64,000 bases of DNA. It comes from Acetobacteraceae bacterium. Its GTDB lineage: Bacteria > Pseudomonadota > Alphaproteobacteria > Acetobacterales > Acetobacteraceae. The translations under genes and the position numbers were made by a program. Positions 52,398-60,681 of the stretch are shown piece by piece. The stretch spans positions 186,001 through 250,000 of the forward strand of contig JARLIM010000021.1 of the NCBI GenBank assembly GCA_031291725.1, written 5' to 3'. Under the pieces are notes generated by a model, which was not told where the DNA came from, did not search any database, and saw only the letters and a list, made by a program, of their open reading frames with translations. Within the stretch, counting starts at the first letter, position 1. Every line of letters starts with the position of its first letter.

Positions 52398-53210
52398 GTG
52401 GACGACAACGCTGCCACAGCCATCGATCTGCCGGGATTGCCCGACAGTCTGCAGGCGTCTCGCGTGGACAATATCGCCATTCTGCGCCTGACCCGGCCGG
52501 GGAAGCGCAACGCCATCGACAACGCGATGATCGCGGGCATCGATCTGTTCTTCTCCACCCTGCCGCATGACATCCGCGCCGTGGTGATCCATGGCGAGGG
52601 CGATCATTTCTGCGCAGGCTTGGATCTGTCCAGCCTGACCGAGACCGACGCCTATGAGGCCGTGCTGCATTCGCGGGCATGGCATCGGGCGTTTGCCAAG
52701 ATTGAAAAGGCCGAGATGCCGGTGATCGCCGTGCTGCATGGTGCAACCGTCGGCGGCGGGCTGGAACTGGCGGCGGCTGCGCATATTCGCGTCGCCGAGC
52801 GCAGCACGTTCTACGCCCTGCCAGAAGGTCAGCGCGGCATTTTCGTCGGCGGTGGCGCCTCGGTGCGGGTGCCCAAGCTGGTCACCCTTGCCCGCACGAT
52901 GGACATGATGCTCACCGGGCGAACCTATGGCGCGCAAGAGGGTGTCACCCTCGGCTTCTCGCAATACCTCGCCGAGAACGGTGCGGGTTTTGCGCACGCG
53001 ATGGAATTGGCGCGCAAGATCGCCAGCCACGCGCCTTTGTCCAATTTCTCCGTTTTGCACGCCATGCCGCGCATTGCGGAAAGCCAGGATGAGGCAGGCT
53101 TCTTTATCGAAAGCCTGATGTCCGCCGTGGCCTCCTCCGACAAGGACGCCAAAGGCCGGTTGCGGGCGTTTCTGGAAAAGCGGGCCCCGAAAGTGACCCA
53201 TAGCGGCTGA
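52398..53210 (+). CDS. Enoyl-CoA hydratase/isomerase (crotonase) family protein
   Basis: A 270-residue crotonase-fold protein. Seen: NIAILRLTRPGKRNAIDNAMI, the oxyanion segments HGEGDHFCAGLDL and HGATVGGGLELAAAAHIRVAE, and LPEGQRGIFVGGGASVRVPKLV with a Glu at a usual catalytic position. It is followed at once by a feruloyl-CoA synthase-like gene, so it may hydrate the CoA thioester of a hydroxycinnamate. It does not show the distinct N-terminus of known hydroxycinnamoyl-CoA hydratase-lyases (Ech/FerB), so whether the chain is cut by retro-aldol cleavage or by beta-oxidation is open. GTG start with GGAGG upstream. Confidence 0.88.
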   Translation: MDDNAATAIDLPGLPDSLQASRVDNIAILRLTRPGKRNAIDNAMIAGIDLFFSTLPHDIRAVVIHGEGDHFCAGLDLSSLTETDAYEAVLHSRAWHRAFAKIEKAEMPVIAVLHGATVGGGLELAAAAHIRVAERSTFYALPEGQRGIFVGGGASVRVPKLVTLARTMDMMLTGRTYGAQEGVTLGFSQYLAENGAGFAHAMELARKIASHAPLSNFSVLHAMPRIAESQDEAGFFIESLMSAVASSDKDAKGRLRAFLEKRAPKVTHSG

Positions 53211-53241
53211 ACCGCCACACGCGCGGGAGGAAACATAAGCA

Positions 53242-55041
53242 ATGAAAACCAGACCAGTCCGCCTCGGCCGACACACGCCGCGCTTTGCCTATCGCCCCGA
53301 TGGCAGCATCATCGTCGATAGCCCCGATCCGCTCGGCAGCTTCCCGCGCGCGATCACCGAGCGGCTGGAGCATTGGGCACTCGTCGCCCCGGATCGCGTC
53401 TTCCTCGCCGAGCGCGACGCTGCCCGAAATTGGCGGCGTGTGACCTATGCCGAGGCTTTCGCCCTGGTGCGCGCCATCGGCCAAGGTCTGCTCGATCGCG
53501 GCCTGTCCGCCGAGCGGCCGGTGATGATCCTGTCGGGCAATGACATCAATCACGCCCTGCTCGGTCTGGCGGCGATGCATGTGGGCATACCCTATGCGCC
53601 GATCTCAGTGCCCTATTCCACCGTTGCCACCGATTTCGCCCGCCTGCGCCACATCTTCGCCAAGCTGACGCCGGGCCTGGTGTTCGCCGCCGCCGCCAGC
53701 CCGTTCGCCCGCGCCATCGAGGCGGTGGTGCCACGTTCGGTGGAGATCGTGCTGACTTCAGGCGAGTTGACCGACCGCGCCCATACCGGCTTCGACGATC
53801 TTGCCGCCACCCGCGCCACCCCCGCCGTCGATCAGGCGCATGCGCGGATCGGGGCTGCGACGATTGCGAAATTCCTGTTCACCTCCGGCTCCACCGGACT
53901 GCCGAAAGGCGTGATCAACACCCAGCGCATGCTGTGCTCGAACCAGCAGATGATCCTCGAATCGCTGCGCTTCATGGAGGACACGCCGCCGGTGATCGTC
54001 GATTGGCTGCCGTGGAACCACACCTTCGGCGGCAACCACAATGTCGGCCTCGTCGTCTATAATGGCGGCTCGCTCTACATCGATGACGGCGCACCCACGC
54101 CCACCGGCATCGCCCGCACGGTGGAAAACCTGCGCGACATTGCCCCCACGGTCTATTTCAACGTGCCGAAAGGCTATGAGGAACTTGTCGCCCATCTGCG
54201 TCGCGATGCCGATTTCGCGCGGCATTTCTTCTCGCGGCTGGAGCTGATGTTCTATGCCGGGGCCAGTCTGGCGCAACATGTGTGGGACGAACTCAACACC
54301 ATCGCCTTGGCATTGACCGGCGAGCGTGTGGTGATGATCACCGGCCTGGGTTCCACCGAAACCGCCCCCTATGCGCTCGCCTGTCGCTCCGATGTGACGG
54401 GTTCGGGCATTGTCGGCCTACCGGTGCCGGGGGTGGAGATGAAGCTGGTGCCCAATCAGGGCAAGCTCGAAGCCCGCGTGCGCGGCCCCAACATCACGCC
54501 GGGCTATTGGCGCGAGCCGGGGCTGACGGCGGCGGCCTTCGATGAGGAGCAGTTTTACCAACTCGGCGACGCGCTGGCCTTCGTCGATGCGGCCGCCCCC
54601 GATAAAGGCTTCCGTTTCGATGGCCGCGTGTCGGAGGATTTCAAACTCGCCACCGGCACCTGGGTCAGCGTGGGGCCGCTGCGGGCTCGGGTGGTGGCCG
54701 GTCTTGCCCCTTATGTGCGCGATGTGGTGGTGGCAGGCGCGGATCGCGATTACGTGGCGGTGATCATCGTGCCGGACCCGGCGGCATGCGCGGGGCTGGA
54801 CGATGCGGCGTTGCGGGCCGCGATCCATCCCCTGCTGGCCGATCTGGCATCCCAGGCGGCGGGGAGTTCGAACCGGGTGATGCGGGCGGTGCTGCTCGAC
54901 GCGCCGTTGTCGCTCGATGCGGGCGAGGTGACGGATAAGGGCTCGCTCAATCAACGCGCCGTGCTCGCCGCCCGCACAACGCTGGTGGAGGCACTCTACG
55001 CCCCCGCCCCCGCCCCCTCCGCCGACATCATCGCCCTCTGA
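53242..55041 (+). CDS. fcs: Feruloyl-CoA synthase-like acyl-CoA ligase
   Basis: A 599-residue ANL-family ligase: hydroxycinnamate (ferulate, p-coumarate) + CoA + ATP to acyl-CoA, AMP and PPi. Seen: the ATP loop [12 protein letters not shown] at residues 212-223, [20 protein letters not shown]-like adenylate region ([15 protein letters not shown]), [10 protein letters not shown], and the C-terminal hinge [26 protein letters not shown]. The [14 protein letters not shown] block and the [18 protein letters not shown] block are, in my recollection, typical of feruloyl-CoA synthases rather than fatty acyl ligases. It lies 31 bp after the crotonase with its own GGGAGGA site. Substrate is inferred from family and context. 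Confidence 0.88.
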
Positions 55042-55058
55042 GGCAGAAAGGACGCATC

Positions 55059-55820
55059 ATGCATTACGCAGGACATGCCGCCATCGTCACCGGCGGGGCT
55101 TCGGGATTGGGCCTCGCCACCGCGCAGGCCCTGGCCGCTCTTGGCTGCAAGGTCACGCTGCTCGACCGCAATGAAGAGGCAGCAATGGCAAGGGCTTGCG
55201 AACTCAATGGCCTGGGCATCGGCTGCGACGTGGCCGATGCGGCGGGCGTGGAAGCGGCCGTGGCGCAGGCACGCTCGGCACATGGCCCGGCACGGGTGCT
55301 GGTCAATTGCGCGGGCATCGGGGTCGCCGGCCGCGTGGTCGGGCGCGATGGGCCGCAACCGCTGGCCGATTTCGAGCGCGTGATCCGCGTCAATCTGATC
55401 GGCACCTTCAACGTCCTGCGCGTGGCCGCCGCCGACATGGTCGGGCTGGAGGCGTTGCCGAGTGGCGAGCGCGGCGTGATCGTCAACACCGCCTCCTGTG
55501 CGGCCTTCGACGGCCAGATCGGTCAGGCGGCCTATGCCGCATCCAAGGGTGGCGTTGCCGCGATGACCTTGCCGATCGCGCGCGAACTCGCCCGCTTCGG
55601 CGTGCGCGTTGCAACCATCGCGCCCGGCCTGTTCCAGACGCCCCTGCTCGCCAATCTGCCGCAGGACGCCCAGGACAGCCTGGGCGCTGCCATCCCGTTT
55701 CCCTCCCGCCTGGGCAAGCCGGAGGAATTTGCCGATCTCGCCGTGCACATCATCGCCAACCCGTATCTGAACGGCGAGACGATCCGCCTCGACGGCGCCC
55801 TTCGCATGGCGCCGAAATAG
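55059..55820 (+). CDS. SDR family 3-hydroxyacyl-CoA dehydrogenase (HSD17B10-like)
   Basis: A 253-residue SDR. Seen: [80 protein letters not shown], a Ser in [25 protein letters not shown], and [16 protein letters not shown]. The IAPGLFxTPLL and YAASKGGV blocks are typical of type-2 3-hydroxyacyl-CoA dehydrogenases such as HSD17B10. Third gene of the operon, 17 bp after the CoA ligase. With the crotonase it could oxidise a 3-hydroxy-3-phenylpropionyl-CoA, giving a beta-oxidation route; a thiolase is absent. Confidence 0.87.
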
Positions 55821-55854
55821 CCGACGACCACGCAACACCAGGGAGGATAAAACA

Positions 55855-57063
55855 ATGAAAAAACTATTGCTCGCCGCCATCGCCTTGCCATTGCTCGCCA
55901 CCGCCGCCTTCGCGCAGGCGCCGATCCGTATTGGCGTGCTGAACGACCTTTCCAGCGTCTATGCCGATTATCAGGGCATCGGCTCGGTGATCGCCGCCCA
56001 GATGGCCGCTGACGATGTCGGCCCGGTGGCCGGACACAAGGTGGAAATTCTGAGTGCGGACCATCAGAACAAGCCCGATGTCGGCTTGGCGATCAGCCGC
56101 AAATGGTTCGACACGGACGGTGTGGCGGTGGTGATGGACGTGCCGAACTCCGCCATCGCCCTGGCGGTGAGCGATCTGGCGCGTGACAAGAACCGGATGT
56201 TCATCGGCTCGGGTGCCGCCATCGATCTGCTCACGGGTGCCAAATGCACCCCCAACACCATCCATTGGACCTACGACACCTGGGAAGCCGGCCACGCTTT
56301 GGCCAATGCCGTGGTGGCCGGCGGTGGCAAGAAATGGTACTACCTCACCGCCGATTATGCCTTTGGCGACGTGTTGCAGGCGCGGATGAGCGAAGAAGTG
56401 GTGGCCGATGGCGGCACCAATGTCGGGGCGGCACGCCATCCGTTGGGAGCGTCGGATTTCTCCTCGCAGCTGGTCTCGGCACAGAACTCCGGAGCGGACG
56501 TGCTGGGTCTGGCCAATGCGGGCGGGGACAGCGTGAATGCGATCAAACAGGCGAAGGAATTCGGTCTGACGCCGAAGATGAAAATCGCCGGTCCGCTGAT
56601 CAACATCAACCACATCGACGCGCTTGGCTTGGCCGAAACACAGGGCGTGATGGGGGCGACGCCGTATTATTGGGATCTCAACGACGGCACCCGCGCCTTC
56701 GCCAAGCGATTTGCCGAGCGTCATCCGCGTCATATGTATCCCAACGACATGCAGGCAGGCATGTATTCCGCCGTGCTGCACTTCCTCAAGGCCGCAAAAC
56801 AGCTGAACGGCGAGGTGCTGGATGGGGCGAAAATGGTGGCCGCGATGAAGGCGATTCCCACCGATGACCCAATCTTCGGCAAAGGCTCCATCCGCGCCGA
56901 TGGCCGCAAGATCCATCCGGTCTATCTGATCGAGACCAAGACCGAGGCGGACTCGAAATCGCATTGGGACATGTTCAAGATCATGGCCACCATCCCTGCG
57001 GACAAGGCTTTCCGCCCGATGAGCGAAGGCAAGTGCCCATTGGTATCATCCGCCAAGCCGTAA
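55855..57063 (+). CDS. Periplasmic substrate-binding protein, ABC transporter (LivK/aromatic type)
   Basis: A 402-residue protein with a Sec signal (MKKLLLAAIALPLLATAAFAQA). The mature protein is a type I periplasmic binding fold: IRIGVLNDLSSVYADYQGIGSVIAAQMAADDVG, VPNSAIALAVSDLARDKNRMFIGSGAAIDLLTGAKCTPNTIHWTYDTW, FGDVLQARMSEEVVADGG, GLANAGGDSVNAIKQAKEFG. Such proteins bind branched-chain amino acids or aromatic acids; the operon context suggests a hydroxycinnamate or other lignin-derived acid. No permease or ATPase genes follow, so partners are elsewhere. It ends before a rho-independent terminator. Confidence 0.87.
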   Translation: MKKLLLAAIALPLLATAAFAQAPIRIGVLNDLSSVYADYQGIGSVIAAQMAADDVGPVAGHKVEILSADHQNKPDVGLAISRKWFDTDGVAVVMDVPNSAIALAVSDLARDKNRMFIGSGAAIDLLTGAKCTPNTIHWTYDTWEAGHALANAVVAGGGKKWYYLTADYAFGDVLQARMSEEVVADGGTNVGAARHPLGASDFSSQLVSAQNSGADVLGLANAGGDSVNAIKQAKEFGLTPKMKIAGPLININHIDALGLAETQGVMGATPYYWDLNDGTRAFAKRFAERHPRHMYPNDMQAGMYSAVLHFLKAAKQLNGEVLDGAKMVAAMKAIPTDDPIFGKGSIRADGRKIHPVYLIETKTEADSKSHWDMFKIMATIPADKAFRPMSEGKCPLVSSAKP

Positions 57064-57092
57064 TTTTCCAACTACATTTCAATGCATTAAAA

Positions 57093-57122
57093 GCCAGACG
57101 ATCATATCGTCCGGCTTTTTTT
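57093..57122 (+). terminator. Rho-independent terminator of the hydroxycinnamate operon
   Basis: GCC-A-GACGAT pairs with ATCGTC-C-GGC around a short loop (one A/C mismatch), followed by seven T residues, 29 bp after the binding-protein stop. Confidence 0.85.
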
Positions 57123-57271: not shown

Positions 57272-58663
57272 ATGCGAATGAGCGGATATCGGGTCGGCAT
57301 TTTGCCATTATCCCTGGTCGCAGCGATGGCGATAGCTGTCAAACCCGCTGAGGCGATTCCGGCGTTTGCCCAGCAAACCGGCCAGCCTTGCACCGCCTGC
57401 CATGTTGGCGCTTACGGACCGCAACTCACCCCAACCGGGCGCGCATTCAAGATCGGCGGCTACACGCAAGGCGGCGGTGATGGCTGGACGGCAAGCATGC
57501 CGCTGTCGGTGATGGCCGTCACCAGCCTCACCCATCTCAATACAGGCTATCCAACCGGTGGAGCGCCGCAGGATTTCGGCACCAATAACAATCCCTCGAT
57601 TGACCAAGCCAATGTCTTCATCGGTGGCGGTCTGAGTGATCACACCGGCGGATTGATGCAGATCACGTGGCAGAATATCGGCACCAGCTACGATAACTTC
57701 CACCTCGACAACACCGATCTGCGTCCTTACGTGACCACGTTCAGCGTCGGCGGCAAGGATCTGGTGGTCGGCACCACGTTGAACAACACGCCGACGGTGC
57801 AAGACCCCTACAACACGACGTTCGCCTGGGGTTATCCCTACGTTTCGCCCAATTCCAATTTGGCCCCGGCTCCGGCAGCGAACGTGATGCTGGCAGGCGC
57901 GTTGGCCGGCAACTCGATCGGTTACACCGCCTACGCCCAGTACGACGGCAAGCTCTATCTCGAAGCGGGCGCTTACAGCACCCCCGGTCGTTGGACGCTC
58001 GCACGGCTCGGCAACCCCGACTCCTTCGGCAGCATCTCTGGCGCGGCCCCCTATCTGCGCGGTGCCTATGAATGGCAGTGGGGCACCAATGCGGCCCATG
58101 TCGGTGCGATGTTCATGCAAGCCGACATCAATCCGTCAACCGGGCTGGCATACCAGACCTCCAGTGCCACCGGCAGGAACCGCTATGCCGATTATGCCGC
58201 TGATGCGGCCTATCAGTTCCTCGGAGACGGCACGCATATCGTCACCGTTCAGGGAATCTACACCTACGAAACGCAGAACATCGCCGCGGGCAATGCGATG
58301 AGCGGCGTTACGTCGAAATACACACTGAACCAAATCAGGGCAAATACGTCCTATTGGTACAAAAACACCTACGGCGCCACGCTCGGCTGGCAGAAGACGT
58401 GGGGTCCGGTGAACCCTGATCTCTACGGGGCCGCGGGGGGCAGCGCCAATAATCGGCCAGACAGCAACGCCTTCATCGCCGAGGCGGACTGGGTGCCGTT
58501 CGGCAAGGACGACAGCCGTTGGGCGCCGTTTGCGAACCTGAAATTGGGCGTTCAATACACTGCCTATACCCAGTTCAACGGCGGCAACAAAAACTATGAT
58601 GGCAACGGGCACAACGCCAGCGACAACAATACGTTGATGCTGTTCGCCTGGATGATCTTCTGA
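57272..58663 (+). CDS. Outer-membrane fused monoheme cytochrome-porin (Cyc2-like)
   Basis: A 463-residue secreted protein. Signal about 1-28, then IPAFAQQTGQPCTACHVGAYGPQLTPTGRAFKIGGY: one heme site C40-x2-C43-H44 embedded in the A-x-P-x-FA-x-x-TG...C-x-x-CH...L-T-x-x-G-R-x-FK-x-x-GY pattern I associate with the Cyc2 family of fused cytochrome-porins. From about residue 70 on the sequence is beta-barrel-like: alternating aromatic/polar strands rich in Gly, Asn, Tyr, and it ends in Phe (FAWMIF), a barrel-insertion signature. Length fits Cyc2 (about 400-490). Known Cyc2 proteins oxidise Fe(II) at the cell surface; here the electron donor is unknown. First gene of a five-gene group; AGGGGA lies 8 nt before ATG 57272. 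Confidence 0.82.
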   Translation: MRMSGYRVGILPLSLVAAMAIAVKPAEAIPAFAQQTGQPCTACHVGAYGPQLTPTGRAFKIGGYTQGGGDGWTASMPLSVMAVTSLTHLNTGYPTGGAPQDFGTNNNPSIDQANVFIGGGLSDHTGGLMQITWQNIGTSYDNFHLDNTDLRPYVTTFSVGGKDLVVGTTLNNTPTVQDPYNTTFAWGYPYVSPNSNLAPAPAANVMLAGALAGNSIGYTAYAQYDGKLYLEAGAYSTPGRWTLARLGNPDSFGSISGAAPYLRGAYEWQWGTNAAHVGAMFMQADINPSTGLAYQTSSATGRNRYADYAADAAYQFLGDGTHIVTVQGIYTYETQNIAAGNAMSGVTSKYTLNQIRANTSYWYKNTYGATLGWQKTWGPVNPDLYGAAGGSANNRPDSNAFIAEADWVPFGKDDSRWAPFANLKLGVQYTAYTQFNGGNKNYDGNGHNASDNNTLMLFAWMIF

Positions 58664-58670
58664 GCAGAGC

Positions 58671-58692
58671 GACGGGTGCGAGAGCGCCCGTC
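58671..58692 (+). promoter_or_regulatory. Stable hairpin with GAGA loop after the cytochrome-porin gene
   Basis: GACGGGTGC (58671-58679) pairs with GCGCCCGTC (58684-58692, one G-U) around a GAGA tetraloop, followed by TTTC. It is 7 bp after the stop codon; the short U-tract suggests attenuation or mRNA 3' end protection, giving a higher dose of the porin than of downstream genes. Confidence 0.6.
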
Positions 58693-58733
58693 TTTCGCTT
58701 GGCACCGACCGTTTCATATTTGGAGGGTACGTC

Positions 58734-59288
58734 ATGAACCGACGCTCAACGAAGTTTCTCGTCCTGGCCGGCCTCACCACCGCCGCATTGTTCACCCCGC
58801 AGGGCGGGGCTCGGGCACAGACCCCATCGACCGTTCATCCCATGCCGCAATCGCTGATCAACGAACACGCGGAGGATTTCGAAAAACTCGAAATCCTGTC
58901 CAAGCGGCCCGGCAAGGTCGGCGAGATCGCCCGCAAGGCGGTTGCTCTGTTCAAGCGGCATGAAGCCACCGAAAAAGACTACATCATGCCACCTTTGACC
59001 CTGCTGCCCAGCCTGGCAGACGGTCAGGTGACACCTGACATGGCCTGGGCGATTGCGATGACGGATAAGGTCAGGGCGAACCGGGAGCTGATCTTTCAGC
59101 AGCACACCGAAATGACCGACATTCTCAGTGAGCTGGTCGTGGCGGCCGAGGCGGCGCATGACCAAGATGCCAAGGAATTCGCCGAGGCGGCGGCGGGAGA
59201 CTCCCTCAATGACGTGGAGATCCTGGAGCCGATGGTACTGGTGCTCGGCGATTATCTGAAGATGAAACTGGCAGCTTTGCCGAAATAA
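58734..59288 (+). CDS. Secreted hemerythrin-like four-helix protein
   Basis: A 184-residue protein with a signal peptide (residues 1 to about 29, RAQ at the end). The mature part is nearly all-helical: SLINEHAEDFEKLEILS (His45), ALFKRHEATEKDYIMPPLTLLP (His76, Glu80), IFQQHTEMTDILSELV (His124), and DSLNDVEILEPMVLVLGDYLKMKL. The pattern His...His-x3-Glu-x6-PPL...His is that of hemerythrin/HHE di-iron proteins. In the fourth helix the expected His and Glu positions appear to be Asp156 and Asp160, so the metal centre may be modified or incomplete. Role (iron, oxygen or NO sensing/binding in the periplasm) is inferred. GGAGG precedes the start. Confidence 0.65.
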   Translation: MNRRSTKFLVLAGLTTAALFTPQGGARAQTPSTVHPMPQSLINEHAEDFEKLEILSKRPGKVGEIARKAVALFKRHEATEKDYIMPPLTLLPSLADGQVTPDMAWAIAMTDKVRANRELIFQQHTEMTDILSELVVAAEAAHDQDAKEFAEAAAGDSLNDVEILEPMVLVLGDYLKMKLAALPK

Positions 59289-59336
59289 TCCATACGCATT
59301 CACGTTCACAGACAATCCGCGATGAGGAGATTTCTC

Positions 59337-59729
59337 ATGAATGAACGCACATTGCGCTCGATGCTTTCGGTGTTCCTGATGTCCGGCGCATTGGCTGCCG
59401 CTTTCGCTGCCCCCGCCCTGGCCGGTGACGCCAGCGCCGGGCAGTCGGTGTTTAAATCAGTCTGTTCGATGTGCCATTCCAATCAGCCTGGGCAGAACAA
59501 GATCGGGCCGTCGCTGTTCGGCGTGGTCGGGCGCAAGACCGGCTCAGCCGAGGGCTACACGTATTCGCCGGCCAATCAGGGGGCCAATCTGACCTGGGAC
59601 GAAGCGACGCTGGACAAATACCTCATCGCGCCACGGACGGTGATTCCCGGCACCAAAATGACCTATGGCGGCATGAAGGATGATGAGAAGCGCGGCAATT
59701 TGATCGCCTATCTGGCGACGCTGAAGTAA
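59337..59729 (+). CDS. Periplasmic class I cytochrome c
   Basis: A 130-residue secreted monoheme cytochrome. Signal about 1-29 (LMSGALAAAFAAPALA), heme site C43-S-M-C46-H47 (VFKSVCSMCHSNQPGQNKIGPSLFGVVGRKTGS, a form found in mitochondrial-type cytochrome c), and axial Met108 in VIPGTKMTYGGMKDDEKRGNLIAYLATLK. Start ATG 59337 has AGGAG 7 nt before it; the ATG at 59322 overlaps that site. Located between the hemerythrin-like and membrane genes, it is the obvious soluble carrier between the outer-membrane cytochrome and the inner membrane. Confidence 0.92.
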   Translation: MNERTLRSMLSVFLMSGALAAAFAAPALAGDASAGQSVFKSVCSMCHSNQPGQNKIGPSLFGVVGRKTGSAEGYTYSPANQGANLTWDEATLDKYLIAPRTVIPGTKMTYGGMKDDEKRGNLIAYLATLK

Positions 59730-59759
59730 AATCGCCAGGTCAGCAGGAAGACACGCACA

Positions 59760-60326
59760 ATGGAGATCTCGCTTCGCGACCTCGTCACAGTCTTGCACGG
59801 TATGGGCTTTGGCACGTTGTTTATGATGGCATTCTCGGGTGCCATCGGGGTGATTTATGTCACCGCCTTCGTCGGCGTGCAGCCCATCGCCCAGCGCGCC
59901 ACCACGCTGATGTTCCGCTTCTACCTCGTCAGCATGGTGGTGCTGTCCTGGCTGACCGTGCTGTCGGGCACGTACCTGATCTACCCTTGGTATCGTGCCA
60001 AGCCACCGGCAGGGACCACCGATCTGTCGCTCTATCCGCGCTCCTTGCTGCTATCCAGCCCAAGGACCAGCGGGTGGCATGATCTCGGCATGGAGTGGAA
60101 AGAGCACATCGCTTGGTTCACGCCGATCGCGATGACGATGGTGGCGTACGTCTTCATCAAATACGGCCCGCAGATCGCCTTGCATCGGCAGTTGCGCAAC
60201 GCGGTGCTGGGCTTCACGGCTGCCGCGTTCTTCGCCACGGCTGTCGCCGGCGGCGTTGGTGCATTCCTGAACAAGAACGCACCCGTGCGCGGCGGTGCGC
60301 AGATCATTTTGTATCGGGGTGAATAA
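59760..60326 (+). CDS. Four-helix inner-membrane protein, candidate heme b/quinone-interacting subunit
   Basis: A 188-residue protein with four hydrophobic segments: about 8-38, 54-77, 116-135 and 147-170. Conserved-looking polar residues sit at membrane edges: His13 (VLHGMGFG), the block GTYLIYPWYRAKPP after TM2, then SGWHDLGMEWKEHIAWFTPI with His107 and His116, and His142. His13 and His116 are placed such that a b-type heme between helices is possible. I do not assign a family name. No signal peptide; the N-terminus is short and likely cytoplasmic. It follows the cytochrome c gene by 30 bp and precedes a small membrane gene by 1 bp. Confidence 0.7.
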   Translation: MEISLRDLVTVLHGMGFGTLFMMAFSGAIGVIYVTAFVGVQPIAQRATTLMFRFYLVSMVVLSWLTVLSGTYLIYPWYRAKPPAGTTDLSLYPRSLLLSSPRTSGWHDLGMEWKEHIAWFTPIAMTMVAYVFIKYGPQIALHRQLRNAVLGFTAAAFFATAVAGGVGAFLNKNAPVRGGAQIILYRGE

Positions 60327-60327
60327 C

Positions 60328-60681
60328 ATGGCCACCACACCGAACTTCCACAACGAAACCCTGCGACGACCCAACGGTTCCGGGGCCGCCGCGATTCTGG
60401 CCGCCGGAATTGGCGCAGGCGTGCTGGGCATTCTTGCCTTGGCTTCCGATGCGATCCCTGCGGTGAACCACGTCTTCCAATTCGCTCCTGCCAGCGGAGA
60501 CCTCTCCGGGGTGACGACGACCTCGGTGATTATCTGGCTGCTGGTCTGGTTCGGCCTGTCCCGCCATTGGCGTGGCCGTGACGTCAATCTGCTGCCGATC
60601 AATCTGGCAGCCCTGGCGCTGCTGGCAGCGGGGCTTCTGCTGACATTTCCTCCCTTCATGGATCTGTTGGAAGGCAAATAG
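60328..60681 (+). CDS. Small three-helix membrane protein
   Basis: A 117-residue protein with three hydrophobic segments (GAAAILAAGIGAGVLGILAL about 19-38; TTSVIIWLLVWFGL about 64-78; NLAALALLAAGLLLTFPPF about 92-110) and the charged WFGLSRHWRGRDVNLLPIN between TM2 and TM3. A histidine-rich N-terminus (NFHNET) and the FPPFMDLL end are notable. Function unknown; tight linkage to the preceding membrane gene (1 bp) suggests the two form one membrane subcomplex. A palindrome at 60701-60725 closes the cluster. Confidence 0.7.
   Translation: MATTPNFHNETLRRPNGSGAAAILAAGIGAGVLGILALASDAIPAVNHVFQFAPASGDLSGVTTTSVIIWLLVWFGLSRHWRGRDVNLLPINLAALALLAAGLLLTFPPFMDLLEGK

Follow-up and report, generated by a model that had tools for sequence, protein, structure and literature searches.

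Can five genes in a member of the Acetobacteraceae carry electrons from an external donor through the outer membrane and, if so, is the conduit a known one? The question is raised by genes A to E of the window, by which we mean the whole 64,000-nucleotide stretch of DNA that was analysed (Acetobacteraceae bacterium, assembly GCA_031291725.1, contig JARLIM010000021.1, positions 186,001 to 250,000). A sequence-only reading had described them as consecutive co-directional genes built around a Cyc2-like fused cytochrome-porin. All five are present on the plus strand, span positions 57272 to 60681 and are separated by gaps of 70, 33, 30 and 1 bp. The features of the locus are as follows.

57089..57122, plus strand: intrinsic terminator, a hairpin with a U run (MFE -19.4 kcal/mol, z-score -6.78 against shuffles; also detected by pattern scan)
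57272..58663, plus strand: gene A, 463 aa, predicted fusion of a Cyc2-like monoheme cytochrome with a 16-strand porin of the outer membrane (motif AIPAFAQQTGQPCTACHVGAYGPQL, model, porin fold matches, tree)
58671..58692, plus strand: GC-rich hairpin with a short T tail between A and B (pattern scan)
58734..59288, plus strand: gene B, secreted helical protein, weakly hemerythrin-like (profile search, ortholog alignment)
59322..59729, plus strand: gene C, periplasmic monoheme cytochrome c, c-550/CycA-like, CSMCH (PF00034, NF043008)
59760..60326, plus strand: gene D, four-helix membrane protein of no known family, 188 aa (profile searches, alignment, model)
60328..60681, plus strand: gene E, small membrane protein of no known family, 117 aa (profile searches, conserved LSG and LTFPP motifs)

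The start of gene E is likely the ATG at 60328 rather than the GTG at 60295 that opens the longest frame. The hairpin between A and B is a putative attenuator, which would possibly yield more A than products of the remaining genes. The terminator at 57089..57122 divides the cluster from a transport gene upstream (55855-57063), and the downstream neighbour is encoded on the opposite strand. With a strong terminator ahead and an opposite-strand gene behind, the cluster forms an isolated unit. The region upstream (52398-57063) holds an aromatic-acid-like set comprising an enoyl-CoA hydratase, a feruloyl-CoA-synthetase-like enzyme, an SDR and a binding protein of the branched-chain type; near a gene A relative of 38% identity in L082 lie a synthetase of similar kind and an SDR.

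Cyc2 proteins are marked by the motif AXPXFAR[Q/K][T/Y], a CXXCH heme site, a PXL motif, a length of at least 365 aa and a barrel (PMC8406198). Gene A encodes a signal peptide, as judged by eye, and a single N-terminal CXXCH (...VKPAEAIPAFAQQTGQPCTACH). This heme site, CTACH, follows AIPAFAQQT and is itself followed by PQL; both of its Cys residues and its His are invariant in 24 gene A relatives. The protein of 463 aa is above the minimum length. An AlphaFold2 model built from 24 sequences showed exactly 16 barrel strands (pTM 0.75, mean pLDDT 69.9), with fair quality in the barrel and poor quality in the N-terminal heme region, where pLDDT is below 50 for residues 1-36. The Foldseek matches listed for this model are outer-membrane barrels with E-values down to 2.8e-09, among them OprP (E=1.7e-08) and OprO (E=8.7e-08), the pair reported as similar to Cyc2 (PMC8406198). 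A PDB profile search gave chance-level matches only, such as azurin at E=0.05, and Pfam searches on gene A alignments returned no consistent family. The signal peptide, single CXXCH, 16-strand model and porin fold matches agree with the earlier description of the first gene as an outer-membrane monoheme cytochrome-porin. Comparison of gene A with the fused cytochrome-porin type had been set beforehand as a test, with failure as the refuting outcome; a match was found.

Gene A departs from the published motif at one residue: AIPAFAQQT fits AXPXFAR[Q/K][T/Y] except for Gln in place of Arg. The same departure occurs in 33 of 40 scored relatives. Arg is kept in the other seven, which include L025, L031, L033, L035, L037 and L038 and belong mostly to deeper branches. 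In all scored relatives, as in gene A, PQL lies five residues past CXXCH, one more than the published spacing of four. Homology to proteins with the exact motif nevertheless extends over almost the full length: a Caballeronia plasmid protein (ALPAFARQTG..CVACH) shares 36% identity over 96% of gene A (E=5e-55), and the L025 protein with AVPAFARQT is 51% identical to it. Given the exchange of Arg for Gln, the shift of PXL by one residue and the retention of Arg in only 7/40 relatives, we place gene A, on its sequence, in a variant lineage of cytochrome-porins homologous to Cyc2 and do not count it as a strict Cyc2. A published Cyc2 screen dropped sequences lacking AXPXFAR[Q/K][T/Y] (PMC8406198). 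Since the motif Arg is missing, the filter behind the published Cyc2 tree of 1,593 sequences would discard the gene A lineage.

Gene C matched PF00034 with E=5.3e-09, which bears out the proposed mono-heme cytochrome c; its match to NF043008 (CycA), with E=1.2e-28, is still below the family cut-off. A c-type cytochrome gene also follows gene A relatives on plasmids of Polymorphobacter, Caballeronia, Acidithiobacillus ferrooxidans, Acidiphilium cryptum, Ideonella and Methylocystis, and a cytochrome of this type is the most widespread partner of gene A relatives. A closely similar plasmid segment carrying an A relative, a cytochrome c and pdxS/U32 peptidase genes is found in A. ferrooxidans YQ-N3 and A. 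cryptum JF-5 (L071/L093), which suggests that the Cyc2-like gene has been passed between acidophiles.

The second gene had been read as a secreted hemerythrin-like protein. Secretion holds; the resemblance to hemerythrin is weak. Gene B matched PF01814 (hemerythrin) at E=0.0069 and 17.3 bits, under the curated cut-off of 25.3, and 10 of 20 gene B orthologs matched the same family with E-values up to 0.1 (best 4.9e-05). A PDB profile search found no relative of gene B. Among the orthologs His76, Glu80 and Asp160 are invariant and His124 is present in nearly all, but first-helix His44 is replaced in many and the fourth helix has no conserved His, so that the canonical diiron ligand set of five His and two carboxylates is not conserved. 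Strong orthologs of gene B occurred in 10 of 299 Acetobacteraceae genomes. Every one of these carries gene A, compared with 73 of the 289 others (p=1.8e-6); this and the other co-occurrence p-value are only indicative, since the genomes compared are related. One candidate for a second A-B link, a hemerythrin gene close to a Cyc2 relative on a plasmid of Paraburkholderia, was rejected because its product has no signal peptide and shows no relation to B.

Neither membrane protein belongs to a described family. Profile searches with gene D gave no match in Pfam or NCBIfam and only chance-level matches in PDB, and 13 members of the family showed no consistent Pfam match; gene E likewise has no Pfam, NCBIfam or PDB relative. 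The model of gene D contains four long helices at low confidence (mean pLDDT 52.8). Across 17 aligned sequences, of which 16 are from Acetobacteraceae and the last is encoded on a Burkholderia plasmid, His13 and His116 are conserved wherever the region is covered, and the motif reads GMEWKEH.(A/S)W. Together with His107 they make up the conserved His residues of the protein, which helix order places on a common side of the membrane; positive-inside charge counts left the topology ambiguous. A four-helix membrane protein with histidines, as previously proposed, is consistent with these data. Three conserved His on one side differ from the two His ligand pairs of a di-heme cytochrome b, and gene D has no family match to the b561 or bc1 type. 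A membrane heme or quinone site in D, as once suggested, is compatible with the conserved His but remains putative, given the poor model and the ambiguous topology. The dN/dS of gene D was 0.04-0.22 in four pairs, indicating purifying selection.

Gene D was found in 10/299 Acetobacteraceae genomes, and gene E adjoins it in the window and in all nine loci fetched around other D matches. When 385 Alphaproteobacteria and 398 Pseudomonadota, evenly drawn, were searched, the window genome alone gave a convincing match. Gene A is present in 7 of the 10 genomes with D and in 76 of the 289 without it (p=0.006). Conversely, D-E is missing from 76 of 83 genomes with gene A and hence is not required for A to work. 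The pair also occurs outside the operon: alone in L076 and L077, next to a cytochrome b561 gene in L075, divergent from a multiheme cytochrome gene in L079, and on the Burkholderia contaminans plasmid pB1701 beside a Tn3 transposase and near chromate and mercury resistance genes. Because D-E is also found without any Cyc2-type gene, it is not a dedicated Cyc2 partner; it is a pair able to move separately, sometimes with other redox proteins.

In the neighbourhood survey the five genes were found together elsewhere, as the earlier reading had required. The order A-B-C-D-E is kept in seven genomes (window, L002, L003, L004, L005, L019 and L028); L006 shows A-B-C-D up to the contig end, and the same genes are rearranged in L007, L016, L010, L011 and L014. 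Genome counts anchored on D and on A overlap (G105=L003, G073=L016, G021=L007). L028 is the cultured Rhodopila globiformis DSM 161, with a complete operon. This strain has two A-type genes, the second in an A-B-C-C arrangement without D-E (L021). The operon-borne A proteins form a single clade of seven sequences with support 99/95; L005 is not placed in the printed tree. Conservation of the order across genera, together with purifying selection on D, argues that the grouping is not due to chance. A gene for a multicopper oxidase of the CopA/CueO type adjoins the cluster in L002, L003, L007, L011 and L014; no homolog of it was found in the window genome. In L002, L003, L006, L010, L011, L014 and L019 groEL lies beside the cluster, pointing to a common ancestral location that is absent in the window genome. 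Seven congeners of the window genome have neither B nor D-E, and five of them carry A proteins, in other branches where placed. The G+C content of the cluster is 0.601 compared with 0.643 for the window; values as low were seen in 9 of 303 same-size sliding windows, some of which necessarily overlap the cluster. The congeners without B and D, the position of their A proteins and the low G+C suggest that the window genome gained the operon by horizontal transfer.

The host carries a Calvin-cycle operon (cbbR, cbbL, cbbS, cbbX, cbbF, cbbP, cbbT and cbbA), three COX1-type heme-copper oxidases, of which one belongs to a cbb3-type gene set, and a bc1 operon with all cofactor ligands, namely CTHLGC and CPCHGS of the Rieske protein and both His pairs of cytochrome b, with cytochrome c1 present. 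Host gene names were assigned by sequence inspection, family searches aside. The third heme-copper oxidase gene set (L089:14282-16542, G000 contig 1) lies approximately 3 kb from the Calvin-cycle operon. This is the gene set of an aerobe that could use an inorganic donor for CO2 fixation. Photosynthetic use of the cluster in this host was rejected, as reaction-centre genes had no match in the assembly, which is 92% complete and was searched with a control list without a purple bacterium. A deranged bc1 complex is described for acidophilic Acetobacteraceae (PMC10715153). A role of D-E as a bypass for such a complex is rejected for this host, whose bc1 ligands are intact, and for the same reason D-E is not needed as its sole link to quinone.

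We propose that the operon probably mediates outer-membrane electron transfer on a Cyc2-like cytochrome-porin, with electrons passing, most likely from Fe(II), to a periplasmic cytochrome c. By sequence and model, A is a predicted 16-strand porin with an N-terminal c-type heme, C a predicted periplasmic and B a predicted secreted protein, and D-E a linked membrane pair; electron direction, substrate and the role of D-E are inferred. By analogy with Cyc2, the heme of A would accept a single electron at the outer membrane from a reduced metal in solution, Fe(II) being the likeliest, and A would hand this electron to cytochrome C. Judging from the host genome, C would supply the heme-copper oxidases for energy, and some electrons would go uphill via bc1 to NADH for CO2 fixation. 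More speculatively, D-E might be an inner-membrane docking or redox unit taking electrons from C, conceivably through a heme or a metal that His13 and His116 coordinate, and B might be a periplasmic metal-binding accessory that handles iron. The Cyc2-type conduit anticipated for this cluster draws support from its anatomy, from homology and from the metabolism of the host: by the motif, length, heme and barrel of A and its full-length homology to exact-motif relatives, by the cytochrome c partner, the conserved order, the 99/95 clade and the association of B and D with A. The cytochrome b561 or multiheme cytochrome beside D-E outside the operon also counts in favour. The proposal is weakened by the Gln for Arg, the PXL spacing of five, the frequent absence of D-E and the congeners without B and D-E. 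The function of the divergent Cyc2 Cluster 3, to which gene A may or may not belong, has been called uncertain (PMC8406198).

Cyc2-type proteins have also been tied to Fe(III) reduction (PMC8790237), and at low oxygen quinol electrons could leave through D-E, C and A to reach Fe(III) or some other acceptor outside the cell. Acidiphilium and Acidocella, both Acetobacteraceae, reduce ferric iron, and a Cyc2-type protein is the proposed terminal reductase in Acidithiobacillus (PMC8790237, PMC10715153); the plasmid of A. cryptum JF-5 bears an A relative followed by a cytochrome c gene, and the cytochrome b561 linked to D-E in L075 would suit a quinol-to-cytochrome step. We consider this outward flow unlikely, since the Calvin-cycle operon and three heme-copper oxidases better suit electron intake for autotrophy and the multicopper oxidase attached in five genomes points to oxygen. 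That same oxidase could instead point to a metal-stress module, in which A, B and the multicopper oxidase would act at the envelope to oxidise and detoxify a metal such as iron or copper, yielding no energy, and the resistance genes near D-E on the B. contaminans plasmid fit this. Such a role is improbable: no homolog of the oxidase was found in the window genome, the cluster has neither an efflux pump nor a metal regulator, and two cytochromes with a conserved cytochrome c partner suit electron transfer. Finally, the divergent heme-region motif, and the porin part that makes up most of A, might mean a porin with a structural or sensory heme among five genes that are mere neighbours. The order kept across genera, the supported clade, the invariant heme site and the cytochrome c partner of distant A relatives make this very improbable.

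Compatible with electron intake through A is a further, rather doubtful role for D-E, as a small inner-membrane redox complex of a new type with heme b or a metal at His13/His116, linking cytochrome c to quinone past bc1 and joinable to different electron sources. If so, a Cyc2-type conduit could feed quinone without the bc1 complex. Little is known of how such conduits join up with the inner membrane, and what they do beyond classical iron oxidisers is uncertain; to them the operon adds a periplasmic accessory and a pair of membrane proteins without a known family. Rhodopila is one of the taxa to which Fe(II)-oxidation transcripts from iron snow were assigned (PMC8305228). In R. globiformis DSM 161, a cultured purple phototroph, it is directly testable whether the operon serves to oxidise iron, to support photoferrotrophy or to reduce iron. 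The suggestion that the module is undescribed holds in part. No description of the operon or of D-E was found in the literature searched, most subscription papers lying outside its coverage, and the new part is B, D-E and the five-gene operon; Cyc2 beside a cytochrome c in Acetobacteraceae is already known (PMC10715153). The operon can be set beside three known systems.

The rus operon of Acidithiobacillus ferrooxidans comprises Cyc2, Cyc1, an aa3 oxidase and rusticyanin. The present cluster resembles it in joining an outer-membrane cytochrome-porin and a periplasmic cytochrome c in one unit (PMC8790237), but has D-E in place of rusticyanin, the diheme Cyc1 and the oxidase genes. The A-C pairing and the proposed role in iron are shared with Acetobacteraceae Cyc2 homologs that have an adjacent mono- or diheme cytochrome c; that account does not mention hemerythrin, and the D-E pair, the multicopper oxidase and the five-gene order do not appear in the passages of it that were consulted (PMC10715153). 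With Cyc2 of Mariprofundus and Acidithiobacillus (PMC8406198, PMC7029218), gene A has in common the signal peptide, the N-terminal CXXCH, a downstream PXL, a length above 365 aa and a 16-strand OprO/OprP-like barrel. It differs from these proteins in the Gln for Arg and in the five residues from CXXCH to PXL, and its setting differs in the c-550-like monoheme cytochrome partner and in the operon with B, D and E.
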